Assembly: GCA_024696945.1 (NCBI GenBank)
Contig: JAILGF010000101.1
Location: forward strand, 1-36,479
Source of the DNA: Lachnospiraceae bacterium
GTDB lineage: Bacteria > Bacillota > Clostridia > Lachnospirales > Lachnospiraceae
Length of the DNA stretch: 36,479 nucleotides
Reading direction: 5' to 3'
In this document: piece by piece, positions 3,682 to 21,120 of the stretch
Position numbering within the stretch: position 1 is the stretch's first letter
Layout: each line of letters starts with the position of its first letter
The notes under the pieces: model-generated
Told to the model about the DNA's origin: nothing
Database searches by the model: none
The model's input: only the letters and a program-made list of their open reading frames with translations
Made by a program: the position numbers and the translations under genes

Positions 3682-3780
3682 TCAAGATTTATCTAGCTCA
3701 CGAACACTCCTCCCCTTAGATTGAAAACTTACCATCACACTACTGGAGTATGTATCCGTTTGATTGTATAATCTCAACCA
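3682..3780 (-). pseudogene. Possible C-terminal stump of a lost gene upstream of the ABC exporter
   Basis: An open frame of about 32 residues ends at a TGA 15 bases before the ABC exporter start, the spacing expected of a preceding operon gene. It is cut on its 5' side by a TGA and then by IS66 debris. No family is recognised; the end reads SFQSKGRSVRELDKS. It may be chance. The position between an operon gene and an insertion element is the only support. Confidence 0.2.
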
Positions 3781-3808
3781 TCAGTACCTACTAACGATAC
3801 CATTTTTC

Positions 3809-3864
3809 TGAGATAATTATATTATAAAACTAGTCAATTCCGGCCGCTACAAGAGGTTATCTCA
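3809..3864 (+). repeat. Inverted pair TGAGATAA/TTATCTCA before tnpA of remnant A
   Basis: TGAGATAA at 3809-3816 is matched by its reverse complement at 3857-3864, which overlaps the decayed tnpA start. The same arrangement occurs at 4639-4683 before tnpA of remnant B, with a different spacer (29 rather than 40 bases). Conservation of the arms but not the spacer suggests an element-specific hairpin or protein-binding site at the left end. Confidence 0.55.
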
Positions 3865-4382
3865 TATCTGCAAAATCATTGATTAATCAAGCCAAACTTA
3901 ACAAATAAACATCCAGTCTCTCGGATCAGAAAGCAAGCGGTCTTTCTGTTGCAGAATAGTGTGAACATAACAATATCTCACAATACCACTCCTTTTACTG
4001 GAAACGACTGATCAAGAAAGTAATTGTTGATCAAATGCTTCCCGACATCGTTTTTCTTCCAAAACCTTCTGTACCCACGAAACCTAATACTTCTGAAACT
4101 ACTTGTACAACTCGCGCATGTAGTACAAGTTTTGCAAGCAACTTTAAGACATTTTTCATTGTTTGATTCTTTTAACGAAGCAGAACGCCTTCGCTAGTCG
4201 CATTGCTTATAAATTGAAAGTATGTGAATGCCCTTCCTATTGAAAGACAGTCAAATGCATTAAGGAATCCGAAGGCCGAATATCGATGACTTTTCACCTG
4301 AATAACCAGCTATGTGGCTTTCAGCCACAGATTAATCGACGACGAAACATCGGCATCAAGTCAAAGTCAATGACTTCTTTGC

Positions 4383-4638: not shown

Positions 4639-4683
4639 TGAGATAATATCATCATTTCATTAATCTCAAGAAGGGTTATCTCA
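4639..4683 (+). repeat. Inverted pair TGAGATAA/TTATCTCA before tnpA of remnant B
   Basis: TGAGATAA at 4639-4646 pairs with TTATCTCA at 4676-4683; the last A is the first base of the tnpA ATG, and AAGGG lies just before it as a possible RBS. It is the counterpart of the 3809-3864 repeat. Folding would occlude the start codon, which would fit low transposase expression. Confidence 0.55.
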
Positions 4684-5411
4684 TGTCATCACAGTCAATC
4701 ATTCACCAAACCAAATTAAACGACTAGATCTCTAAGTTCGCTTATCAAAAAGCCAGCGGATTGTCGATCACTGAATGGTGTCTACGAAACAACTTATCCA
4801 GGTACAAGTTTTTCTACTGGAAACGCCAGTTAAAAAACGAACTGGTCACTCATTCCTTGCCGGATATCGTGCCCTTACCATTACCCACCACACAGTCACC
4901 GACTGTGTCTGATCTTGCAACTACTCCATCACTTAATAGCACAACTCGCGCAAGTTGTGCAACTTTTGCAACCGGGTCATGTGCAAGAATCTATATCAAC
5001 GACATTACCATTGATCTTGAGTCTTCAGCATCAGAACTCTTCATCCGGACTCTTATAAAGGCGCTAATCCCAGTTTCTTTGCGGGTATCCATATCGTATG
5101 TGGCTAACACAGATCTTCGTCTCGGAATTGATTCATTGGCGACCATCATAGAACAGCGCTATAAGATGATTCTCTTTATTCCCAGTACCCTGTTTCTGTT
5201 TTGTGGACATTCATCCACTAGGATCAAAGGCCTTCTATGGGAATGAGACAGTTTCCTTCTTTTGTATAAGTGTGTCGAATGCGGAAGAATTACATGGCCG
5301 AGAACTTCTTCCGAACTTAAGAACCTTTCGCCAGAAAAGTTTAGATGGCTGATGCAGGGATTTGCCATTGAACCGCTAATACACAACATCAATTCCTCCA
5401 GGTCTGCTTAA
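4683..5411 (+). pseudogene. IS66 tnpA and tnpB remnants fused into one broken frame
   Basis: The frame begins MSSQSIIHQTKLND, then TAG in place of an expected Trp, then KASGLSITEWCLRNN and FFYWKRQL, typical of IS66 accessory protein TnpA. It runs into TnpB sequence (TDLRLGIDSLATIIEQRY, then LFLFCG and IKGLLWE), stops at TGA 5244-5246 where a Gly codon is expected, and continues in frame as DSFLLLYK and WPRT to TAA at 5411. Just before TDLR, another frame reads FAGIHIVCG, so one extra A near 5108 has shifted the tnpB start region into the tnpA frame. TnpA and TnpB are accessory proteins of IS66 transposition; neither is functional here. Confidence 0.78.
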
Positions 5412-5612
5412 ATATTTATGTGCAAAACGCTGATTTTTTTCAGGCTTTCCTTGGTTATTACATTCGGTGCTATACACAGCTTTTAACGGCTTTCCTCGTA
5501 TTGTCTGTACATCGCTTAAAAGCGTAGTCATTTTCACGAATCCTCGCATCTTCTGAATTCGCTATTTTACTGCATTTTTGCTATGATCATTATGGTTTGA
5601 GAGGATTATTAT

Positions 5613-6155
5613 ATAAAGGTTCATTTATCTGACGAACAACTTAATAATTTGGGTAAAGATGCGCTCATCATTCTCGTATCTTCTCTGCAGTCTCAGTTCG
5701 AATCCGCTAATGCCATGCTCGCTGACAACATAAAGCAGATTAACCTTTTAACGGAACAGATCCGCATATTGAATCAGCGTCATTTCGGTAAGAAATCCGA
5801 AAGTAATCTAAGCAGTATGAACGGACAGCTTTCAATGTTTGATTCCTTTAATGAGGCCGAAAACCTTAAGGATCCTAACCTTCCGGAACCTGAGATCACC
5901 GAAGTTATCATCTCATCTTACAAGCGTTCAAAAACTAAAGGCAAACGTGATGAAGATCTTGACGGTCTTCCCGCTCGTATAATCGAACATAAACTCTCGG
6001 AAGAAGAACTTAACGAAAAGTTCCTTGAAGGCTACAGAGATCTTCCTGCCGAGATCTACAAACGGCTTCATATCATACCTGAAACATTTATAGTTGATGA
6101 ACATCATATACATGTCTATGCATCTAAGAGCGAAGTTCCAAAACACTACACATAA
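5613..6155 (+). pseudogene. IS66 transposase TnpC, N-terminal fragment (remnant B)
   Basis: This is the N-terminal part of the IS66 transposase: a helical/coiled-coil lead (KQINLLTEQIRILNQRHFGKK) and the GQLSMFDSFNEAE segment, followed by basic linker and the IIEHKLSEEEL/LPAEIYKRL region. The natural start appears to be ATA at 5613, an ATG altered at its third base, behind GAGAGGA; a TTG at 5649 is the first usable start now. The frame stops at 6155 before the zinc-binding and DDE domains, so roughly two thirds of the transposase is gone. Confidence 0.8.
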
Positions 6156-6340
6156 AAATCCAAGTAATAATATTCAATGAACCAAAATTTATAATCCACT
6201 TAGGTTCGCTCAACCAATCAGATTTCTTAATGTGGCAGTAACCATGTTTGAGTATTTGCCAAACAAACTCCGTGATTTGCTGAAATCTCTGCGATGACAT
6301 AAACTTGATTCTTATTGTTTTTCTCATATAAATGGTGCAT
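6156..6340 (-). pseudogene. N-terminal stump of a NeuB-family (nonulosonate) synthase
   Basis: A frame starting ATG at 6340, behind AGAGGAG at ideal spacing and 10 bases after the aminotransferase stop, reads MHHLYEKNNKNQ and then VYVIAEISANHG. IAEISANHG is the N-terminal signature of the NeuB/PseI/LegI synthases, which condense phosphoenolpyruvate with a 6-carbon sugar to form 9-carbon nonulosonic acids. After 37 codons it meets TAA at 6227-6229; downstream frames show at best weak traces, and by 6155 the sequence is IS66 debris. About 90% of the roughly 340-residue enzyme is missing. Which subfamily it belonged to cannot be told. The operon position beside cytidylyltransferases supports the assignment. 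Confidence 0.72.
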
Positions 6341-6350
6341 TTATGCTCCT

Positions 6351-7640
6351 CTACTTTATATTTCTCTTAAACACCGGGTTAACCTTACCACCAATAAGAA
6401 TTCCTTCCAATGAGTCACTATCAATAGCCTTTCTGATTAACGAAAACGCTTCATCAGTGGCATCTAGATACACTTTTGCTTCTTTCTCAGTATGATGAGC
6501 ATTTAAGAAATAAATAGCAAATTGTATAATACCATGCTGAAGTATGGTCTGTGAATAAATAGACTGTACATCCAAATAGGACAGCGATCCGTGCCCGTCA
6601 AAAGCAACTCCACAATGTTGCGGCATTCCTGTAACCGCAAGAACATCATTCAACTCATACTTATCAATTCTTTCCTGAATTCCGCTTCTGAGTATTGTGC
6701 CAATCTTATTAATGTGTTCATAAAAACCAGGCTGTTCAAGAATCTTCAGCGTAGCAAGAGAAGCCGCCATCGCAATGCTTTCTCCGCCAAATGTTGTGGA
6801 AACAAATACACCTTCTTCTATTTGCTTAAGTAAATCCTTACGCCCGGCAACAGCTGAAATCGGGTAACCGTTACCCATACCTTTGCCAAATGCTACAAGA
6901 TCAGGAGATACGCCAAACACCTCCTGAGCACCACCAAGCGCATAGTGAAAGCCTGATACAACTTCATCGAAAACAAGTATTGCACCATATTTATATGTCA
7001 GTTCTTTAACTCTTTTCAAATAACCTTCTTTAGGACCGCTACTCTGTATTGGCTCAAGAATGACAGCAGCGACTTTATGCTCTTGGAGTTTCTTTTCAAG
7101 ATCATCTAAATCATTGTATGTAAAATTCGTTGTCAAAGCACGAACAGCGTCAGGAACTCCTTTGTGATTATTTGATGCGCCAATTGACCAATCTTGCATT
7201 CCATGATAACCTGACATCAGTACATGGTCTCTTCCAGTGTATGCGCGGGCTAATCTTATTGCAGCGGTTGTTGCATCGCCTCCGTTTTTCACAAATCGAA
7301 CCATTTCAGCACAAGGAATTATCTCACAAATCTTCTCCGCTAACTCAACTTCAAGTTCAGACTGAAGTGATCCACTTGCGAACTTATTTACTTGTTTAAT
7401 AACTGCTTCATTCACAGCAGGTTCATTGTAACCAACAGTAATTGGGCCAAGCGCACACATAAAGTCAATAAACTTATTGCCATCGACATCATAAATGTAA
7501 CATCCCTCACCATGGTCCATGTAACTAGGGGCAAATCCTTTGCTAAAATAGCGGTACGATTTGCTATAAGTCTGCGCTGCTAAGGGCGACACCTTCAATT
7601 CTCTCTCCAAAAGCGCATTGGATTTTTCAAATGTTTTCAT
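6351..7640 (-). CDS. Class III PLP aminotransferase, glutamate-1-semialdehyde aminomutase-like
   Basis: This 429-residue fold-type I aminotransferase of the HemL-like class III family has a KNGGDATTAAIRLARAYTGR segment in the cofactor phosphate region. PLP contact Asp225 is in LVFDEVVSG and Schiff-base Lys253 in FGKGMGNGYP. Because it sits in a sugar locus between a cytidylyltransferase and a NeuB-family stump, it probably aminates a keto-sugar rather than serving tetrapyrrole synthesis; this is inference. The next gene downstream is the truncated synthase, 10 bases away, and SpsF-like 1 lies 26 bases upstream. The length is normal and no defect is seen. Confidence 0.88.
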   Translation of the reverse strand: MKTFEKSNALLERELKVSPLAAQTYSKSYRYFSKGFAPSYMDHGEGCYIYDVDGNKFIDFMCALGPITVGYNEPAVNEAVIKQVNKFASGSLQSELEVELAEKICEIIPCAEMVRFVKNGGDATTAAIRLARAYTGRDHVLMSGYHGMQDWSIGASNNHKGVPDAVRALTTNFTYNDLDDLEKKLQEHKVAAVILEPIQSSGPKEGYLKRVKELTYKYGAILVFDEVVSGFHYALGGAQEVFGVSPDLVAFGKGMGNGYPISAVAGRKDLLKQIEEGVFVSTTFGGESIAMAASLATLKILEQPGFYEHINKIGTILRSGIQERIDKYELNDVLAVTGMPQHCGVAFDGHGSLSYLDVQSIYSQTILQHGIIQFAIYFLNAHHTEKEAKVYLDATDEAFSLIRKAIDSDSLEGILIGGKVNPVFKRNIK

Positions 7641-7666: not shown

Positions 7667-8443
7667 TTACATATCCGAAACATCTATAAGTCGATCTTCT
7701 TTTATCGATTTGTTCAATCCTTCATTCCTTGCATACTTTTTGTTTAATTCCATTATTTCTGGTTTTGATTCAAGAAACTCTATTATGTCACGATAACCGA
7801 AATCATCTTTACTTAATTCTTCCTCGAAATGTTCATATACCCTCTTTACAAGTTCGAAATCTTCTGGCTCATCAACAGTCCATCTGTGGTTTCCGAAGTT
7901 ACCATCAGATGATTCAAAGTCCTGAAGTTTAAAAATCTCCGGATGCCGAATTATGTACTGAGTGACATGTTCTCTCTCAAATGAATGATTTGCTTCTCTC
8001 CATGCCTTTTCTAAAGCAGAATACTTCACTATTTCAAGATCCAGCCCATCTGCGAACGTCTCACTTATCATCGCACGATAGTCTGCATCAGGTTCCATGC
8101 TAGCAATTGCCATATCTAGCAGTTCAGCATCAAAACAAGGACAATCAGCTGTGAGTCTAATCACATACTCAGGCTTCAGCAGTTTTGATGTCTGGTAGAA
8201 ACGATCCAACACATCATCTTCGGATCCTACACCGACTCGAATCCCAAGTTCAGAACAAAGTTTTAGAATAGGTAGATTGTTCTTCTCAATTGATGTGACA
8301 ACCATCACTTCATCAACTAGCTTGCTTCTTTGAACCCTTTCAATCATTCTCTGTAGTGCAGGTTTACCACACAGATCTATAAGAACTTTGTTCGGAAATC
8401 TTGTCGATCCACACCTGGCTTGAATCATTGCTAAGTATTTCAT
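7667..8443 (-). CDS. SpsF-like cytidylyltransferase 1 (CMP-sugar synthetase family)
   Basis: A 258-residue nucleotidyltransferase of the SpsF/CMP-KDO synthetase-like family. The N-terminal IQARCGSTRFPNKVL segment is the CTP-binding signature, followed by GKPALQRMIERV, a GSEDDVLDRFY segment and RLTADCPCFD, which carries the metal-binding Asp. It is expected to transfer CMP from CTP to an acidic or modified sugar. The frame opens with GTG at 8452 directly after the aldo/keto reductase stop, but ATG at 8443 has AGGTGG at better spacing and gives the usual family start. A paralogue lies at 10027-10761; two such enzymes in one cluster suggest two activated sugars or divergent roles. Confidence 0.85.
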   Translation of the reverse strand: MKYLAMIQARCGSTRFPNKVLIDLCGKPALQRMIERVQRSKLVDEVMVVTSIEKNNLPILKLCSELGIRVGVGSEDDVLDRFYQTSKLLKPEYVIRLTADCPCFDAELLDMAIASMEPDADYRAMISETFADGLDLEIVKYSALEKAWREANHSFEREHVTQYIIRHPEIFKLQDFESSDGNFGNHRWTVDEPEDFELVKRVYEHFEEELSKDDFGYRDIIEFLESKPEIMELNKKYARNEGLNKSIKEDRLIDVSDM

Positions 8444-8452
8444 ATTCTCCAC

Positions 8453-9346
8453 CTACTTCACCCATAAACTAGGAACAACCAAATCCGCATCGAAGCCTGA
8501 AAACTCTCTATCAATCTCATCAAAAATAATGTCTGGAATGTCTTTATCGAACGCTACCATATCTTCTTTCAACTGTTCCAAGGATCTTACCCCAAAAACG
8601 AGATGATTTACAGCTGTCTCTCTTTTTACATATCCTATAGCCAACTCGATACGAGAGTGTCCTGTTTCTTTACATAAGGCGTCAAGTTTCCTTAGAATCG
8701 GTTTTGCTTTTGATAAATGATCAGGGACTTCAGATTCTTCAAGGCGTATAAGACCTTTTATAAACGCAGTTCTTACATCTATATTGAACCCCGCATGCTT
8801 TCCTCTCGACAAAACGCCATTTTCCTTCATTCGATGATCAAAAATGCTATATGGAGCTTGAATACAATTGATATTAGTATTGTCAAAACATGCAAAAGCT
8901 TCATCCGGATAGTATACTGACACTCCTACCATTTTAGCCAATCCTTCTTTTTGCATTGCGCTCATTGCATCAAGTAACTCTGGTTTAAATGCATACCGAG
9001 AGCTATGAAAGTAATAAGCATCCACATAATCCGTATGTAATGTTTCCAATGATTTGTGAAGATTCTTTCGTATCACGTCGACATATTCTTCAGGTTTAAC
9101 TTCGTCCATTATATTTGGCAACATCTTTGTGCTGATATATAATTTATCACGTGGCACAGTTTTCATTGATAGAAACTTGCCTGTTATTTCTTCTGCTATC
9201 CCATATGCAGTTGCTGTATCAATTGCATCGATTCCGTTCTGAGTGGCATAATCTAAACAACCAATACAGTACTGTGGGTCTTTCTTCGGTGTATTAAAAA
9301 CACCGTAATCCATTCCAAACTGGACTGTTCCAAGACATAATTTCAC
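8453..9346 (-). CDS. Aldo/keto reductase
   Basis: A 297-residue NAD(P)H-dependent aldo/keto reductase (TIM barrel). The catalytic tetrad is visible: Asp43 and Tyr48 in AIDTATAYG, Lys74 in STKM and His114 in YFHSS. The GTG start at 9346 is preceded by CAGGAG at 8-base spacing and gives KLCLGTVQFGMDYG, the family's strand-1 motif. It ends directly before SpsF-like 1. It probably reduces a keto or aldehyde group of a sugar intermediate of the CMP-sugar module; the substrate cannot be deduced. IS66 remnant C separates it from the upstream SpsF-like 2, so any promoter for 9346-6351 would have to lie in or pass through that debris. Confidence 0.88.
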   Translation of the reverse strand: MKLCLGTVQFGMDYGVFNTPKKDPQYCIGCLDYATQNGIDAIDTATAYGIAEEITGKFLSMKTVPRDKLYISTKMLPNIMDEVKPEEYVDVIRKNLHKSLETLHTDYVDAYYFHSSRYAFKPELLDAMSAMQKEGLAKMVGVSVYYPDEAFACFDNTNINCIQAPYSIFDHRMKENGVLSRGKHAGFNIDVRTAFIKGLIRLEESEVPDHLSKAKPILRKLDALCKETGHSRIELAIGYVKRETAVNHLVFGVRSLEQLKEDMVAFDKDIPDIIFDEIDREFSGFDADLVVPSLWVK

Positions 9347-9509: not shown

Positions 9510-10026
9510 TGAGTGCAAATCAAAATCCACAATGCGAACCTAGTCAAATGGCTGGTACTATTTAAAGAGCATAAATCCAATGAGTGTACCATTTGCGATT
9601 GGTGCAAAAGAAATAATTACTTTACCCTCACTTTTTCTGTTGGAACAGCAAGGCAAAAAACATATGTAAATTCTACTCTATCCTATCGAGCAAAATCGTT
9701 CCTTTGCAACAGACAATTGTCCAGTCACAAAACTATAACCTATTTCACAACTAGTATCACACCAATGACATTTCTCTTACAATTGGAGATATTATTGTCC
9801 ATTTTAGCGAAAACGCATCAGACAAACGTTTTATCCCGATTATAGGCACACTCCGTAATGCTTAGGGATACATATCCGTAGTCATTTAAGGCCATTTACA
9901 TTGTCTAAGGATACGCCAATATGTGATACGGAATAGATTTCTTAGCCGCCGTCATTGAACGCAAATACAATGTCAATCTTTTCATGCCAAGCTGAAACAG
10001 CAATTATTTCTTCTTCCTTATTTTCT
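9510..10026 (+). mobile_element. IS66-family remnant C (tnpA-tnpB)
   Basis: A third IS66-type remnant. TnpA starts MSANQNPQCEPSQ at 9510, shifts frame near 9548 and continues WLVLFKEHKSN and ICDWCKRNN. Its end is seen near 9757-9850 as ISLTIGDIIVHFSENASD and IIGTLRNA. TnpB follows from about 9849: MLRDTYP, stop, SFKAIYIV, stop, GYANM, stop, YGIDFLAAVIERKYNVN, matching the TnpB N-terminus (YTDMRxGIDxLAA). At least five stops or frameshifts are present. It is cut off at 10026, exactly where the opposite-strand SpsF-like 2 gene ends, and tnpC is absent. The leader differs from remnants A and B, so it is probably a different lineage. The 163 bases to its left (9347-9509) show nothing recognisable. 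Confidence 0.75.
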
Positions 10027-10761
10027 TCACGATATCCCTTTACGCTTAATTCCTTCTACATATTCTTTAAGTTCAGGATTTTCATCAATATATTCAATTA
10101 CATCCCTACAACTAAAGTCTGGGTTAATTGTTGATAATCCGCAAATAATAGAATCAAGAAGCTTAAAGTCACCTATTTCATCGAGTGTTACTTCAATATC
10201 GGGTCGGTTCTCATATGATTCCGCTAACAAATTATAGCATTTGAATTCTTGTGGGTGTTGCGGAAAATAGATAGAAACATGCTCTCTATCAAGTATTGTC
10301 AAATCCTTCTTTGATATAATATCAAGTGCATCTGTTGAGAAAATTCTAATATCGAATCCATCAGGATATGTCCGTTCTGTAGAATTAGACACGTAATCGT
10401 AGTCATTCTCCTTATATATGTCAATCAACTCATCAATCTGTCTCCAGTCAATTAACGGGCAGTCGCCTGTTGTTTCTACAATAACATCTGCATCGAATCT
10501 TTTAGCAGCTTTTAGGACTCTATCTAACACATCATCTTCACTACCACGATAATAATGACATTGCAGTTTTTCGCAAAGTGTTACGATGAGATTGTCTTCA
10601 GAGTTTGTTGTAGTTGCAACCACAATATCATCAAGTCTCTTGCTTCGTCTCAATCTCTCTATCATATGTTCCAGCATTGGTTTGCCGCAAGACTCCATTA
10701 AAACTTTTCCTGGTAATCTGGAGGATGTCATCCGGGCTTCAATAGTTGCTATTATCTTCAT
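10027..10761 (-). CDS. SpsF-like cytidylyltransferase 2
   Basis: A 244-residue paralogue of the 7667-8443 protein, with IEARMTSSRLPGKVL at the N-terminus, GKPMLEHMIERL, GSEDDVLDRVL and ETTGDCPLID. The frame could extend to 10797, but ATG at 10761 follows TTGGAGAAAAAAGC and overlaps the stop of the upstream transferase-like gene as ATGA, so it is the likely start. It would make a CMP- (or similar) activated sugar. The only evidence of function is the family plus a neighbourhood of PseB/PseC-like and NeuB-like genes. The 3' end abuts IS66 debris, but the protein length looks normal for the family, so it may be intact. Confidence 0.85.
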   Translation of the reverse strand: MKIIATIEARMTSSRLPGKVLMESCGKPMLEHMIERLRRSKRLDDIVVATTTNSEDNLIVTLCEKLQCHYYRGSEDDVLDRVLKAAKRFDADVIVETTGDCPLIDWRQIDELIDIYKENDYDYVSNSTERTYPDGFDIRIFSTDALDIISKKDLTILDREHVSIYFPQHPQEFKCYNLLAESYENRPDIEVTLDEIGDFKLLDSIICGLSTINPDFSCRDVIEYIDENPELKEYVEGIKRKGIS

Positions 10762-11882
10762 GCTTTTTTCTCCAATTCTCTCTTGACTATTCCGCAAATA
10801 TTTTTAATTGCATTATTCTGAAACCGCAATCTTCTTGTCCCAAAATCCAAATCCATAAAATAAGATTTCATATTTCTTTCCAAATCCTCTTCAGTATAGC
10901 AAGGCAATAACAATCCTTTATCTGCCGCATAAAATGATTCTTTCTTTTTACTATTGATTTGAATAGATATCACCTTTTTTCCGGCAATCAATGCTTCATT
11001 AAGCAACATTGTAAAACTTCCAACCACCAAATCAGAGGACATTATTTCTATGATACTGCTACTATCCGAATCAACAACAGCTTCTATTGGCAATTGTGCA
11101 TTCTTAAGTCTTGCATTCCAATAGTTACGATCTTCCTTTGGGTGCGGTCGGATGATCAGAAAATAATCATAATATGAGTTGCAAGTCATAAGAACACTTT
11201 TTTCGAGCATATCAAATGTTGAACGCTCATCAAATCCCCAGGGGGGTATACCATTCTCGCTGTATTGACTCAGATTGTCCGATGCATATAGGATGATTTT
11301 TCTATTTCCCGCTCCTATGTTACACTTATATTTTTCTATACTTTCAGATTCAATCTGATCATAGTTCTGACGCAAAAACTCAAGATAAGGGTGGCCAGCC
11401 GCTTCTATTCTTTTTGATTCAACCCCAAGCTCCAGTAATTCATTCTTTGCAGAATCATCAGGCACAACAATATAGTCTGGAAGGATAGTAATATCATCCT
11501 TCGTAAACTTATGATGTGATAACATAGTGTAATCCGAAAACCTCACAATATAACCACACCATGCATCCAGAATACAAATTGTTTTTATGCCTTTTTCTCT
11601 TGCTATTCTCCATGTCAATCGCTCAACGAAGTCATCAGAAGATGTCCCTGTGATAATCAAATCAGGTTCCTCTGTTTGAATGACTTTTTTGATTTCGTAT
11701 TCCTCATTATCAATCGATTCAGAGGAATGTAACTGTCTGAACGATATCCCTTTCTCAAACAATAGATGTACCGATGGTCCTTTTGAATAATATGAGCAGG
11801 AGTACGTATCGCATAACTGCATATAAATAGGAATCAAACAGTTTGTTCCACCAGGGTCACAAGAAACAAATATTACCTTCAT
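10758..11882 (-). CDS. GT-B-like transferase with HP motif, possible CMP-sugar user
   Basis: A 374-residue soluble protein with a two-domain GT-B look. The N-terminal segment MKVIFVSCDPGGTN resembles NeuC/epimerase-like or capsular transferase starts. LIIRPHPKE (residues 242-250) and SDLVVGSFTMLLNEAL (283-298) resemble the HP and S/T motifs of bacterial sialyl-, poly-sialyl- and CDP-glycerol transferases. I do not recognise a named family. It may be a glycosyltransferase for the CMP-sugar made here, or a GT-B-fold hydrolase/epimerase standing in for PseG/NeuC. ATGA overlaps with genes on both sides show strict translational coupling in the module. Confidence 0.65.
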   Translation of the reverse strand: MKVIFVSCDPGGTNCLIPIYMQLCDTYSCSYYSKGPSVHLLFEKGISFRQLHSSESIDNEEYEIKKVIQTEEPDLIITGTSSDDFVERLTWRIAREKGIKTICILDAWCGYIVRFSDYTMLSHHKFTKDDITILPDYIVVPDDSAKNELLELGVESKRIEAAGHPYLEFLRQNYDQIESESIEKYKCNIGAGNRKIILYASDNLSQYSENGIPPWGFDERSTFDMLEKSVLMTCNSYYDYFLIIRPHPKEDRNYWNARLKNAQLPIEAVVDSDSSSIIEIMSSDLVVGSFTMLLNEALIAGKKVISIQINSKKKESFYAADKGLLLPCYTEEDLERNMKSYFMDLDFGTRRLRFQNNAIKNICGIVKRELEKKA

Positions 11883-12847
11883 AATACATTTTTAGCCAAG
11901 CAAGTATCTCTTATTTCGCAGCATATCTCGACAGTTTTTGCCGCATCATGGATACCACTTACTATTTCTCCATTTCCATTCAATACATCACATACGTTTT
12001 TATACAGCCCCCTCATGGCGCTGCTTCCATCTATCTGAACTTCTATATTTTTGATGTAATTTGTCTCGTCTCTATAAACTACAGAACTTCCTTTTTTATA
12101 ATATACTATCACATTTTTCTCTCCATCACAGTGTATTTTCCCGTTCTCAAAGAATAAATCAAAATCAAAAACAGTGATTTCTGTACATGGAATTGGGAAA
12201 AAGGCTACTGTAGCTTCGTCAATTTTCATTAAAAACTCAGCACTGGGATCATCCTTACTGTAATCCACTATGTTTCTCGTTACCGCTAATGGTTTCACTT
12301 CTTCAAACAAATAAAGAAAAAGGTTTATTAAATGAGAGCAGTTATGAAGCACACCTTTTCCGTAATAGCATGCACCGCATATTAATTTTCCTGCATCATG
12401 ATTAATCCAAGTTTTAAGATGTTGAAATTCGCTTATGAAACGCCTCGAATAATTTACAAAATATAACTTGGTATCTCTCTCGCAACGCTCTTCAAGCTCT
12501 CCTACTTTCTCCAAGCAGTCTGTTAAAGGCTTTTCTATTATCACCGCTTTAACATTGTTTTTCCCTGTAAACCTCTTCAAATAATCATAATGAAAAGCAT
12601 CCGGAACAGCAATGCAAATAACATCAGCATTTTCTTCAATATATTCTATTGATTCAATAACAACTGTACCCCATTTTTGTGCCGCTTCCAGCGCCTTATT
12701 CTTATCGTTGTCATAAAAGCCCAATAATTCCAATGATTCATTGTGTTTGATTGCTTTTGCATGGGTAAGAATGTTTTTATCTTTTACAATATCATATCCG
12801 CTTGCAATCTGTCCTGCTCCAATAACTGCTACTTTTAGTTTTTTCAT
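11879..12847 (-). CDS. Gfo/Idh/MocA-family sugar oxidoreductase
   Basis: A 322-residue NAD(P)-dependent oxidoreductase. The N-terminal Rossmann motif is VAVIGAGQIASG, and IIEKPLTDC carries the EKP motif with the catalytic/cofactor-contact Lys. It probably oxidises or reduces a sugar hydroxyl/keto group in the same pathway as the adjacent aminotransferases, since oxidation then transamination is a common way to install an amino group. Start ATG 12847 follows AGGTG; the stop overlaps the next gene as ATGA. The 42-base gap to the upstream DegT aminotransferase is the widest between intact neighbours from PseB to SpsF-like 2. Confidence 0.85.
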   Translation of the reverse strand: MKKLKVAVIGAGQIASGYDIVKDKNILTHAKAIKHNESLELLGFYDNDKNKALEAAQKWGTVVIESIEYIEENADVICIAVPDAFHYDYLKRFTGKNNVKAVIIEKPLTDCLEKVGELEERCERDTKLYFVNYSRRFISEFQHLKTWINHDAGKLICGACYYGKGVLHNCSHLINLFLYLFEEVKPLAVTRNIVDYSKDDPSAEFLMKIDEATVAFFPIPCTEITVFDFDLFFENGKIHCDGEKNVIVYYKKGSSVVYRDETNYIKNIEVQIDGSSAMRGLYKNVCDVLNGNGEIVSGIHDAAKTVEICCEIRDTCLAKNVL

Positions 12848-12889
12848 TGATTCAACACCTGCTATTGACTTTTCCTAAACCACCGTGGT

Positions 12890-14173
12890 TCATTCCTTTA
12901 TAGTTAGACCAATATCTTTTCTTTCCTCCCATATCTTATCTATTGCAGTAAAGAAATCATCAATATCATTTTCTTTAAAGGGATATCTGCATATATCTGC
13001 TGTCAGTAGTTTTTCATAGTGCATCGCTTCAACAACTGGGCACAATCCTTTCTTATAATCCTGAGTGGGCTTTTCGATAAACTTAAAAGGATATGTGGTC
13101 TGATTAAACACCCTCTTATGTTTGTAAAGATTCATCAAATATATTGGCTTCACATATCCAACTCCAAGCGGAAATCCTTCTTTCTCCATTGCCCGTGCAA
13201 AAGCGCCTCTACTTATTCCCCATTTTTCTGCATCAAATTGAATAGGATATACATAATAAGAATGGGTGTATCCTTTCGGAACATATGCAGCTTTTAATCC
13301 TATTCTTTCATTTAATCCCTTATCAATTTTTTGAGCAAGAATACGTCTTTCCGATAAAAAATGATCCAATTTCTTAAGTTGTTCAATTCCCACAGCTGCA
13401 TGCAGTTCACTCATTCTAATATTATTGCCAAGTACAACTGCTTCCATGTCATTTTCTTCGTCTAATGCTACTTCACCATGATTTCTTATAAGTTGACACA
13501 TTCTTGCCAACTCATCATTATTTGTGAGAATAATTCCCCCTTCTCCGCTGTGAATTATTTTATGATAATTCAGGCTGAATACACCGATATCAGCAATTGT
13601 TCCAGCTTCGGAACCGTTTATTGTAGCTCCCGGAGATTGAGCATTATCCTCAATCACGAAAAGGTTGTGTTTCTTTGCAATATCCATTATCCTTGGTAAG
13701 TTGCTTGGCAAGCCAAAGATGTTGACTGTCAGAATTGCCTTTGTATGGGGAGTAATCCATTTTTCGATTTCATCTGGATTTATCGTATATGTATCAGGAT
13801 CAATATCAACAAAAATCGGAACTGCACAATTCATCAATATGGCACTTGCTGATGCCACCATAGTATATGGCGAAACCAGCACTTCATCTCCGGGGCCAAT
13901 TCCACACGCAGCCACAGCTGTATGAAGCGCGGTTGTTGCAGAATTCACTGAGATAGCATGTTTTGAACCAAATCGCTTGCAAAAATCTTCCTCTATTTGT
14001 CTGACTCTTGGGCCTCCAAGAAATTGATCACCTGAATTAGCTAGAAAAGAAGACAAAACCCCTGATTTCATAACATCCAGAACCGCTTCACTTTCTTCTT
14101 TCCCCATTGTACTCATCCACGGGATAGGTTCCTCTCGTACAGGTTTCCCCCCTAATATTGCACATTTATTCAT
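12890..14173 (-). CDS. DegT/DnrJ/EryC1 sugar aminotransferase
   Basis: A 427-residue PLP-dependent sugar aminotransferase. PLP contacts are visible at Asp176 in VIEDNAQSPGA, with Schiff-base Lys205 in SLNYHKIIHSGEGG; the N-terminal half contains NSATTALHTAV. It aminates a keto-sugar nucleotide or related sugar. Start ATG 14173 is preceded by GGAGG and lies 8 bases inside the end of the PseC-like gene. A second DegT aminotransferase right after PseC, plus the class III enzyme, means three aminotransferases in one module, consistent with a multiply aminated product. Substrate is not deducible. Confidence 0.87.
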   Translation of the reverse strand: MNKCAILGGKPVREEPIPWMSTMGKEESEAVLDVMKSGVLSSFLANSGDQFLGGPRVRQIEEDFCKRFGSKHAISVNSATTALHTAVAACGIGPGDEVLVSPYTMVASASAILMNCAVPIFVDIDPDTYTINPDEIEKWITPHTKAILTVNIFGLPSNLPRIMDIAKKHNLFVIEDNAQSPGATINGSEAGTIADIGVFSLNYHKIIHSGEGGIILTNNDELARMCQLIRNHGEVALDEENDMEAVVLGNNIRMSELHAAVGIEQLKKLDHFLSERRILAQKIDKGLNERIGLKAAYVPKGYTHSYYVYPIQFDAEKWGISRGAFARAMEKEGFPLGVGYVKPIYLMNLYKHKRVFNQTTYPFKFIEKPTQDYKKGLCPVVEAMHYEKLLTADICRYPFKENDIDDFFTAIDKIWEERKDIGLTIKE

Positions 14174-15377
14174 TAGTATTTTCCTCCTTGATAGAGTAAT
14201 AATCTACAACTCTCTTCACAGCACAAATGACATCCTCCACATCCTGATCGCTCATTTTGGGATACAACGGGATGCTCATAATACCTTTATACATCTCCTC
14301 AGCATTTGGGCACAACCCCTTCTCATATCCAAGAAACTTATAATATGGGAACCAATAAACAGGAATATAGTGAATCTGGCACTGAATATTTTCAGCACTC
14401 ATGGCATCGAAGAATTCACGACGTGTACATTTCAATTTCTCGAGGTTAAGTTGAATGATATACAGATGACGACATGTATCAGATTCTGGGATTTCCTTCT
14501 GTACAATCAGTTCCGGAATCTGTAAAAAAGCCTCGTTATACCTTTTAACAATCTCCTGCCGACGACTTCTGAATTTATCAATCTTTCCAAGTTGAGAAGT
14601 AATTAAAGCTGCCTGAAAATCCGTAAGACGGTAGTTGTAGCCAAGACTGATTTGCTCATAATACCAAGGTCCCTCATGAGGTGCACCTTCCATCAAGTCT
14701 TCATCATGAGTAATACCGTGAGTGTGGGCAAGTACCAACTTCTTATACAGTTCTTCATCATTTGTAAGAATCGCTCCGCCCTCACCGCCAGTAACCGTCT
14801 TTACCGGATGAAAAGAGAAACAAGTCATATCTGCCAACGAGCCTACCTGCTGTCCGTTATACTTGGTAGCGATAGAATGAGCAGCATCCTCAATAAGTAT
14901 AAGACTATGCTCTTTGCAGATTTCACGAATCTTATCGATCTCAACAGCTTGTCCTGTAAAGTCCACAGCTATAACAGCCTTTGTATGCTCTGTGATATGA
15001 GAACGTATAGACTCTGGATCAATGTTGTAGGTTTCAGGATTGATATCTGCAAACACAGGTTTTGCACCGCAGTAAAGGACACAGTTCGCAGATGCCGCAA
15101 ATGTAATCGGTGTGGTTATCACTTCATCCCCAGGCCCAACTCCCGCTGCTATTGCCGCGCAATGAAGAGCTGATGTGCCAGAGTTTACCGCCACAGCATA
15201 CTTTGCTCCAGTAAACTCACAAAGGGTACGCTCAAGTTCATCCACTTTTGGACCACAGGTAAGATAATCCGAATGCAGTACATCAACGACAGCTTGAATA
15301 TCCGAATCGTCAATCCACTGACGTCCATAAAATATCCTTTTCTCTCTAACTGGCATTTTAGTAATGTAAGGCTCCAT
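14166..15377 (-). CDS. pseC: PseC-like UDP-4-keto-6-deoxy-sugar C4 aminotransferase
   Basis: A 403-residue DegT-family aminotransferase of the PseC type. It starts close to RIFYGRQWIDDSDI and contains SGTSALHCAA, TTPITFAASANC, Asp164 in LILIEDAAHS and PLP Lys193 in CFSFHPVKTVTGGEGG, all hallmarks of PseC. It converts the PseB product UDP-2-acetamido-2,6-dideoxy-L-arabino-hex-4-ulose to the 4-amino altrosamine. Immediate pairing with a PseB-like gene 14 bases upstream makes this assignment strong. In the textbook pathway PseH, PseG, PseI and PseF follow; none is clearly present, apart from SpsF-like enzymes and a NeuB-family stump further along. Confidence 0.87.
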   Translation of the reverse strand: MEPYITKMPVREKRIFYGRQWIDDSDIQAVVDVLHSDYLTCGPKVDELERTLCEFTGAKYAVAVNSGTSALHCAAIAAGVGPGDEVITTPITFAASANCVLYCGAKPVFADINPETYNIDPESIRSHITEHTKAVIAVDFTGQAVEIDKIREICKEHSLILIEDAAHSIATKYNGQQVGSLADMTCFSFHPVKTVTGGEGGAILTNDEELYKKLVLAHTHGITHDEDLMEGAPHEGPWYYEQISLGYNYRLTDFQAALITSQLGKIDKFRSRRQEIVKRYNEAFLQIPELIVQKEIPESDTCRHLYIIQLNLEKLKCTRREFFDAMSAENIQCQIHYIPVYWFPYYKFLGYEKGLCPNAEEMYKGIMSIPLYPKMSDQDVEDVICAVKRVVDYYSIKEENTNE

Positions 15378-15391
15378 ACGTTCACCTTTCC

Positions 15392-16390
15392 TTATTCATG
15401 ATGATCGAGGTCTGTCTTCAGTTTTGTTTTTATATCTTCAATACTCATCCATTCTTTATTTGTCCCTGAACTGTAAATGAACCCCGGTTCTACTAAGTGT
15501 CCACCCGGAATGATATAATCCTGATTCCACCAATTGTAATTTGGATAGATGATGTAATGCTTGTCATACTCATATGTTCTCATTGAATCCTCAGCTGGCA
15601 CCATAACCTCATGCAGTTTTTCACCTTCCCTTATTCCTACCTCCGGCATATCACACCCTGGTAGCATCGCCTGGGCAAGGTCCGTGATTTTAAAGCTTGG
15701 AATCTTTGAAATAAATGTTTCACCCCCTCGAGATTCTCCGAGGGCCTTTATTACAAGTTGTACACCTTCCTCTAAGCTGATCCAAAAACGTGTCATCCTA
15801 TAGTCGGTTATCGGAAGTTCCTTTCCGCCCTGATCAATGATGTTCTGAAAAAATGGAATAACTGATCCTCGGCTTCCTGCCACATTTCCATATCTTACAA
15901 CAGAAAATTTCGTTCCATTATCGCTAGAGTACGAATTTGCTGCCGCAAATAGTTTATCTGATACCATCTTAGTCGAACCATACAAATTAATTGGGCTTAC
16001 TGACTTGTCCGTACTCAATGCGACTACTTTTTCCACACCTGCATTGAGACAAGCATCAATTACATTACATGCACCGTTAATATTTGTCTTGATTGCTTCG
16101 ATTGGATTATATTCGCATGCTGGAACCTGCTTTAATGCAGCAGCATGAATTACATAATCCACCCCATTTAGAGCTCTCTGTAAACGATCTTTGTCTCTAA
16201 CATCACCGATGAAGAAGCGCAAAACATCGTCATGCTCTTTATATGCATTTTGCATATTGAACTGTTTGAATTCATCTCTAGAAAAAATTATTATTTTCTT
16301 GGCCCGATAATGTTGGAGAACATAATCCACAAAATGATGTCCAAATGAACCTGTTCCTCCAGTTATAAGAATCGACTTGTTGTTAAGCAT
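15392..16390 (-). CDS. pseB: PseB-like UDP-GlcNAc 4,6-dehydratase (inverting)
   Basis: A 332-residue soluble SDR with ILITGGTGSFG at the N-terminus, the AALKQVPACEYNP segment, Asp128-Lys129 in STDKS and Tyr137-x3-Lys141 in YGSTK. The DK pair with SFG and the lack of membrane helices mark the inverting PseB/FlaA1 type rather than the membrane PglF/CapD type. It makes UDP-2-acetamido-2,6-dideoxy-beta-L-arabino-4-hexulose from UDP-GlcNAc. Start ATG 16390 follows GGAGGAAGAAAACA and lies 28 bases inside the preceding gene. It begins the nucleotide-sugar module. Confidence 0.9.
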   Translation of the reverse strand: MLNNKSILITGGTGSFGHHFVDYVLQHYRAKKIIIFSRDEFKQFNMQNAYKEHDDVLRFFIGDVRDKDRLQRALNGVDYVIHAAALKQVPACEYNPIEAIKTNINGACNVIDACLNAGVEKVVALSTDKSVSPINLYGSTKMVSDKLFAAANSYSSDNGTKFSVVRYGNVAGSRGSVIPFFQNIIDQGGKELPITDYRMTRFWISLEEGVQLVIKALGESRGGETFISKIPSFKITDLAQAMLPGCDMPEVGIREGEKLHEVMVPAEDSMRTYEYDKHYIIYPNYNWWNQDYIIPGGHLVEPGFIYSSGTNKEWMSIEDIKTKLKTDLDHHE

Positions 16391-19787: not shown

Positions 19788-19958
19788 TTAATTGTTTCCT
19801 GTATCTTCGACTACTGGTAGAAGTGTATTGCCGCTACATTATCTGAATTGTTTATAGCTGGATGTGACAGATAGTTTAGAGCACTTATTTCAATCAAGGA
19901 TACGATGATAATCGTTGGTGGATATCACAGTATCAATCATAATTAAAGGAGAACGTTC

Positions 19959-21120
19959 ATACTCTACGTTGGCATTGACATCGCCAAACTCAATCACTGC
20001 GTCTGTGCCATCTCTTCAAACGGCGAAGTGCTACTCGAGCCATTTAAATTTACGAATGACAATGATGGCTTCCACACCTTGGTCTCTAAGCTCAATCAAT
20101 TTGAGAAAGACAAGGTCATCATTGGTCTTGAATCAACGGCTCACTACGACAACAACCTGTGGCCTTCTGATTCCTAAAGGCTACCATGTTTGCCTTATCA
20201 GCCCTATTGAGACTTGTACCATGCGTAAGAACAACATACGCAAAACAAAGACTGATAGGGTTGATACCTACATTATTTGTAAAACTTAAATGATGCAGCC
20301 TCACCGGTTCATCACGCTGTACGACATCGGTCTTATGCAGCTCAATAACCTGGGACGGTTCAGACAGAAGACCGTGAAGCAGCGAACACGATTAAAGATC
20401 CAGCTGACTTCTTACGTTGATCAGTTTTTCCCTGAACTGCAGTATTTCTTCAAGTCAGGAATACATCAAAAGGGCTGCTATGCGCTTCTTAAAGAAGCAC
20501 CATCGCCGGAAGCCATTGCTTCTATGCACCTGACTCATCTCACAAATGTCTTGAAATCGTCCTCACACGGCCATTTCAAGAAAGAAACCGCTGTAGAATT
20601 AAGAGTTCTGGCACAGAAGTCTATCGACACTAGCGACAAATCTTTATCTATTCAGATAACTCAGTCCATTGAGCAGATCGAGTTATTGGATAGGCAATTG
20701 GAACTGATCGAATCAGAGATGGCAGATACCTTCAAATCTCTGGATTCTGTAATAATGACCATTCCAGGTATTGGCTATACCAACGGTGGGATGATCCTCG
20801 GTGAAATCGGTGACATCACCAGATTCTCTAATCAAAGCAAACTGCTTGCTTTCGTAGGGCTGGATCCGTCTGTATATCAGTTTGGAAACTTTGAAGCCAA
20901 GCGGACGCGTATGTCTAAACGCGGCTCAAGAGCCTTGCGCTTTGCGCTTATCAATGCGGCACATAACGTAGTGGAGAATAACCCAACATTTGCTGCTTAC
21001 TATGATCAGAAGCGGTCAGAAGGTCGTAATCACTACAGTACTCTGGAGCATTGTGCTGGAAAGCTGGTAAGAATCATAAACAAGATGCTTACCGATAACG
21101 TTGCCTTTAACCTAGACTGA
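19959..21120 (+). pseudogene. IS110-family transposase, start lost, one frameshift and one stop
   Basis: IS110 recombinases pair a RuvC-like DEDD domain with a C-terminal serine-containing domain. The first frame reads LYVGIDIAKLNHC (first Asp) and IIGLESTAHYDNN (Glu) and ends at TAA 20175. A frameshift near 20160-20175 leads to LLIPKGYHVCLISP and KTDRVDTYII (last acidic cluster), broken by TAA at 20287-20289 where a Leu is expected. The rest (20290-21120, 276 aa) is intact, with [30 protein letters not shown] and the [15 protein letters not shown] segment of the Tnp_20-like domain. The initiation codon looks like ATA at 19959 behind AAAGGAG. Three defects make it inactive. Confidence 0.85.

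Follow-up and report, generated by a model that had tools for sequence, protein, structure and literature searches.

A pseudaminic acid synthase gene apparently cut short by mobile elements in a pse cluster of a Lachnospiraceae bacterium

The 36,479-nt stretch of Lachnospiraceae DNA analyzed here (the window) contains a 37-codon open reading frame (ORF) that, judged by its sequence, is a truncated pseudaminic acid synthase gene (pseI) within an otherwise recognizable pse cluster (table 1). We consider it highly probable that the locus belongs to the published kind of Pse cluster containing a class III aminotransferase together with a reductase, that its 3' end is broken, and that the synthase of the pathway has been lost. 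On the minus strand, the ORF starts with an ATG at 6340, extends over 37 codons to 6230 and ends with a stop codon at 6229-6227. Its N-terminus, MHHLYEKNNKNQVYVIAEISANHG, conforms to the PseI N-terminal motif Y-V/I-I-A-E-x-S-A-N-H-G that we derived from the orthologues in the present set. The ATG is located 10 bp 3' of the class III aminotransferase gene (AT3), which ends at 6351, and is preceded by AGAGGAG 5 nt upstream. A profile built from six intact PseI orthologues (L063-L067 and L113) was searched against the 1,026 stop-to-stop segments of at least 20 residues in the window, and the stump scored 30.4 bits (E 9.1e-9) with the runner-up segment at 4.0 bits; the top score in 100 dinucleotide-preserving shuffles of the window was 7.8 bits. 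The motif, the AGAGGAG and the profile match confirm the original prediction of an N-terminal NeuB/PseI/LegI signature behind a ribosome-binding site and the class III aminotransferase gene.

Table 1. Coordinates of the pse genes, the synthase stump and the mobile DNA around them
Feature	Position	Strand	Content	Basis
Second IS66-like remnant, more decayed	3773..4191	+	tnpC-end-like stretch to ~4560 by eye only	Sequence matches
Decayed IS66 element	4665..6131	+	tnpA and tnpB pieces, ~5' third of tnpC	TnpB_IS66 and LZ_Tnp_IS66 domain matches
One end of a repeated element other than IS66	6131..6259	-	~129 bp; terminus 6259 touches pseI codon 27	DNA match to two contig-end copies in G027
pseI stump	6227..6340	-	ORF of 37 codons, the first ~27 from a pseudaminic acid synthase gene, remainder a mobile-element end	Translation, DNA alignment to 8 orthologues, profile E 9.1e-9, protein alignment
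Class III aminotransferase (AT3)	6351..7640	-	Full length; 73-88% identity to 11 orthologues over almost whole length	Pfam Aminotran_3, 209 bits
Cytidylyltransferase SpsF2, pseF position	7667..8452	-		Domain search, gene order compared with relatives
Aldo/keto reductase	8453..9346	-		Domain search, gene order compared with relatives
Decayed IS66 tnpA/tnpB remnant	9522..9992	+	Between four-gene block and aldo/keto reductase	tblastx E 1e-20 to 1e-14 against L145, L144, L143
Four-gene block	10027..14173	-	Second cytidylyltransferase, glycosyltransferase-like protein, Gfo/Idh oxidoreductase, second DegT aminotransferase; between pseC and reductase	
pseC	14166..15377	-		475.8 bits, TIGR03588 cut-off 423.5
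pseB	15392..16390	-		528.6 bits, TIGR03589 cut-off 407.75

General domain models performed differently from the orthologue profile. In an hmmscan of the 37 residues no match to a Pfam or NCBIfam model was obtained, and the motif that the original prediction expected profile searches to recover was therefore found by the orthologue profile but missed by both collections. In relatives, the Pfam NeuB match starts only past the N-terminal motif (in L042 the motif is at 1453 and the match runs from 1501), and the stump retains few residues of the NCBIfam PseI model. A search of solved structures with the stump returned three weak matches (dTor 6xr1, E 0.16; pseudaminic acid synthase 8h2c, E 0.73; dTor 6xr2, E 1.4); because a dTor structure outranks the synthase and all matches are weak, this search alone proves nothing for the stump. 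With 37 codons and no Pfam or NCBIfam match, the ORF has neither a full-length NeuB domain nor a score above the curated TIGR03586 cut-off, and on sequence grounds we classify it as the remnant of a PseI family (TIGR03586) member, not as a working member.

The stump is joined to mobile DNA at a position that can be defined closely. A DNA alignment with eight orthologues followed pseI through codon 24, whereas codons 25-27 read V C L in the stump and G S L in the orthologues; these three codons are probably still pseI, and the boundary between pseI and the adjacent element is at 6259/6260. From 6257 down to 6132 the window is 76% identical to two places in the relative G027, both of which are at contig ends and which share 99% identity with one another across 165 bases. 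The two G027 copies diverge from each other directly past the same terminus as the window element, and the terminal sequence G(T/C)AAATACTCAAACATGG is common to all three. Because the copies are alike up to a shared terminus and different beyond it, we interpret 6131-6259 as the end of a repeated element. No full-length copy of this element was found in the genome itself, in 299 genomes of the family and 392 of the order, in G027 or among plasmids, phages and viral contigs; matches of 22-44 bp in the family and order genomes were discarded as chance, and apart from the window the element was seen only as its end, in G027. In the window this element is itself truncated after ~129 bp, and its other side adjoins an IS66 tnpC that resembles its relatives up to 6128-6131 and then ends, and the IS66 tnpB and tnpC domains are present as fragments only. 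At the pseI junction no IS66 terminus was detected, as ~129 bp of the other repeated element intervene.

The sequence thus supports a break of pseI by mobile elements with loss of DNA. An IS66-specific mechanism is not established because the DNA in contact with the stump comes from the end of another repeated element. Of the earlier proposal that about 37 codons remain before IS66 debris, the 37-codon ORF stands, but only ~27 codons come from pseI, 6131-6259 belong to another element and IS66 is found only beyond 6131. Likewise, the proposed IS66-associated deletion holds as a mobile-element break with DNA loss but not as to the agent, given the ~129 bp of a different element at the break and the truncated IS66 tnpC beyond it, and the mechanism is better described as disruption by mobile elements in which the 3' part of the operon was lost than as an IS66 deletion. 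Farther away, a split IS110-family transposase gene (two ORFs, 19915-21120) is located inside the polysaccharide cluster.

The genes preceding the stump are arranged in the order pseB, pseC, four-gene block, reductase, cytidylyltransferase, aminotransferase and pseI stump, and the reading frames of pseB, pseC, reductase, cytidylyltransferase and aminotransferase are all full length. The remnant beside the four-gene block and the pseI junction are two places at which the locus seems, from its sequence, to have been remodelled by mobile DNA. We examined decay in four remaining genes (PseC, reductase, SpsF2 and AT3) and found that the window departs from 33 of the 741 alignment columns that are invariant in eight orthologues. 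Departures in PseC (14 of 205) are somewhat above the maximum of any orthologue (11 of 216), and those in the reductase, SpsF2 and AT3 are inside the orthologue range. By this measure the four genes are without clear decay, as would be expected after a recent break but equally if they have kept another role. For the stump, departures number 4 of 15 invariant columns (Fisher p 0.005) and, without the three junction columns, 2 of 12 (p 0.10); its decay is suggestive only because the excess is not significant once those three columns are left out.

To place the stump in the context of related loci, we used a scan for AT3 in one genome per species, which covered 84,980 species and yielded 71 loci; 66 of these have at least 900 bases past the aminotransferase, and PseI was sought in them by tblastn with PseI of L067. 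A PseI relative starts at most 400 bases behind the aminotransferase in nine of the 66 loci; in L069 the contig breaks off within such a gene, so that only its start is present. Among the ten loci with an AT3 at least 75% identical to that of the window, an intact pseI, or its start at a contig end, is adjacent in eight (L063-L069 and L113), so that the NeuB-family gene expected behind the aminotransferase in related genomes is indeed present. PseI matches are several kilobases off in the remaining two (L070 and L071), and L072, which comes next below these ten with an AT3 identity of 73%, has no PseI match within its 21 kb. All three adjacent PseI sequences tested exceed the TIGR03586 cut-off of 340.25 bits (L063, 451.6; L064, 430.0; L067, 441.3), and the synthase type originally given as NeuB-type is correct at the level of the family and can be refined to PseI, not NeuB in general.

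The fullest relative, L113, has the order pseB-pseC-aldo/keto reductase-cytidylyltransferase-class III aminotransferase-pseI-pseH-like-pseG, of which the window keeps the first five genes and ~27 codons of pseI. PseG of L067 and L113 scores above its own cut-off. With the PseH model, the pseH candidates from L063, L064 and L067 stay under the cut-off, and some relatives are incomplete inside the fetched stretch, L063 and L064 for example having no PseG match there. The eight loci with adjacent pseI share with the window the gene order around AT3 (75-88% identical) and a pseI start with the same N-terminus; they differ from it in that pseI runs on (in L069 to the contig end) and in that none of the eight has, between pseC and the reductase, a four-gene block like the one in the window. 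According to their record titles, they come from Pseudobutyrivibrio, Lachnospiraceae, Clostridiales, Clostridia and Eubacterium, several of them from ruminants. In L077, relatives of the second cytidylyltransferase, the Gfo/Idh oxidoreductase and the glycosyltransferase-like protein come after pseI. Flagellin-like reading frames, judged by their first residues only, are found near the pse clusters of L064 (13160-13561) and L078 (938-2821), a hint that the sugar is placed on flagella in some relatives, whereas the window cluster sits among polysaccharide genes. More distant class III aminotransferases (34-46% identical; 20 regions, best of 99 genomes) were rejected as orthologues, as no NeuB-type motif is nearby; beyond the aminotransferase these regions gave only ABC-transporter matches, in two of the 20.

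We then asked whether the missing genes are encoded elsewhere in the assembly (3.9 Mb, 232 contigs, completeness 86.4%, contamination 3.2%). The NeuB and PseI models match one gene, which we named by eye from its sequence as a DAHP synthase gene; a prephenate dehydrogenase-like gene comes after it. Searching the genome with PseI of L067 returned the DAHP synthase gene, the stump (57% over residues 1-30) and two further sites with weak matches (E 0.0035 and 0.17). Neither the remainder of pseI nor a PseG match was found in this 86% complete assembly; the same model searches identified PseG above cut-off in 6 and PseI in 5 of 61 genomes. A PseH search gave weak acetyltransferase matches (E 0.03-0.07) with a query that is itself below the PseH cut-off. 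Two CTP_transf_3 cytidylyltransferases are encoded in the window (10027-10797 and 7667-8452), yet no NeuB-family synthase was found in the assembly. None of 23 genomes of the same genus has a gene above the PseI cut-off, a NeuB-family gene of G006 being just under it (325 versus 340.25 bits), and the top aminotransferase match among them is 40% identical. Given these two results, the pse cluster looks like an island within the genus.

Two statements of the original prediction are supported by these searches: the pathway is incomplete, pseI being cut after ~27 codons with its remainder and PseG not found in the assembly, and the strain should probably lack the sugar unless it has a second synthase, none having been found in the 86% complete assembly apart from the DAHP synthase. 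We propose that an element inserted into pseI and that mobile elements later recombined or underwent a deletion between them, which would have taken the rest of pseI together with pseH and pseG; the loss probably takes in pseH and pseG besides pseI. PseB and PseC together produce UDP-4-amino-4,6-dideoxy-L-AltNAc, the furthest point reachable by the remaining genes, and when PseI is absent the altrose derivative is not condensed with phosphoenolpyruvate and no CMP-Pse is formed. Judging from the gene content, CMP-pseudaminate is probably not made by this strain, unless the DNA missing from the assembly encodes a synthase.

Two other accounts of the locus were weighed. The largest remaining doubt about the loss of pseI is the incomplete assembly: the contig may be joined wrongly, or the DNA that is missing may include an intact synthase gene. 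A repeat could have linked a genuine pse locus to IS-rich DNA from elsewhere in a strain with an intact pseI; the junction does lie in repeated mobile DNA of a fragmented assembly (232 contigs, 86.4% complete), and G027 has two contigs ending in the same element, which marks it as a repeat that breaks assemblies. After a mis-join, however, the other half would usually be present on a different contig, and the rest of pseI and pseG were not found; moreover, by the coarse test of GC content in neighbouring 1-kb windows there is little change at the junction (0.405 to 0.382), and the departures of the stump from invariant columns are a weak hint of decay. We consider such an artefact unlikely. 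It is still somewhat less likely that the pathway is not dead and that pseB, the reductase, the cytidylyltransferase and the aminotransferase serve, with the added block, a PseI-independent sugar. The full-length open frames of the remaining genes are compatible with this, as are the second cytidylyltransferase in a genome where a synthase of the NeuB family was not found and locus L072, which has PseB, a cytidylyltransferase and an AT3 but no PseI match. The evidence from L072 covers its locus only, however, and pseI is adjacent in eight of the ten near relatives. NeuA/KdsB-type cytidylyltransferases use the product of a NeuB-family synthase, which we also count against this account. The stretch concerned in L072 (7240-11287; Butyrivibrio sp. 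YAB3001) encodes pseB, a reductase (29% identical), a cytidylyltransferase and AT3, with neither a PseI nor a PseC match in 21 kb.

A synthase-free pathway, in which the PseB/PseC product, the reductase, the class III aminotransferase, the two cytidylyltransferases and an imported Gfo/Idh-DegT block would make a CTP-activated sugar without NeuB-family condensation, seems to us very improbable. That non-coding DNA resembles the motif by chance could be argued from the missing Pfam and NCBIfam matches of the 37 residues and from structure matches that are weak and led by dTor, but a profile score of 30.4 bits (E 9e-9) against 7.8 for the best of 100 shuffles, in an ORF that adjoins the aminotransferase as pseI does in relatives, leaves this explanation next to no probability, and we count it as refuted already. 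A broken Pse cluster accounts for the position and reading direction of the stump, which are those of pseI in relatives, and for the precise three-piece junction of pseI, repeated element and IS66 tnpC.

Clusters of this type are known from Aeromonas. In a study on flagellin glycosylation islands, group I islands contain pseB-pseC, a reductase ("alpha/keto reductase"), pseF, a class III aminotransferase and, further on in one island, pseI, and two strains of subgroup ID have a transposase gene in the island (PMC7874193). The combination of pse genes with a class III aminotransferase and a reductase had therefore already been published. In subgroup IA as described there, pseG lies between the aminotransferase and pseI, whereas in the relatives identified in the present work pseI comes after the aminotransferase; compared with the group I islands, the window is without most of pseI, pseG and any clear pseH, and its cluster sits among polysaccharide genes (PMC7874193). 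The case in the window is a pseudogene in a known pathway, and gene decay of this kind is ordinary.

The reductase-pseF-aminotransferase type of Pse cluster thus also occurs in Clostridia, with pseI adjoining the aminotransferase. For the orphan cytidylyltransferases of the polysaccharide locus, a probable former role is now explained: what the original prediction suggested they served agrees with a pseudaminic acid cluster that has SpsF2 in the pseF position. A short motif of 12 residues can support a correct pathway call, and in this organism it leads to the prediction that a surface sugar would have been lost at the level of the strain.
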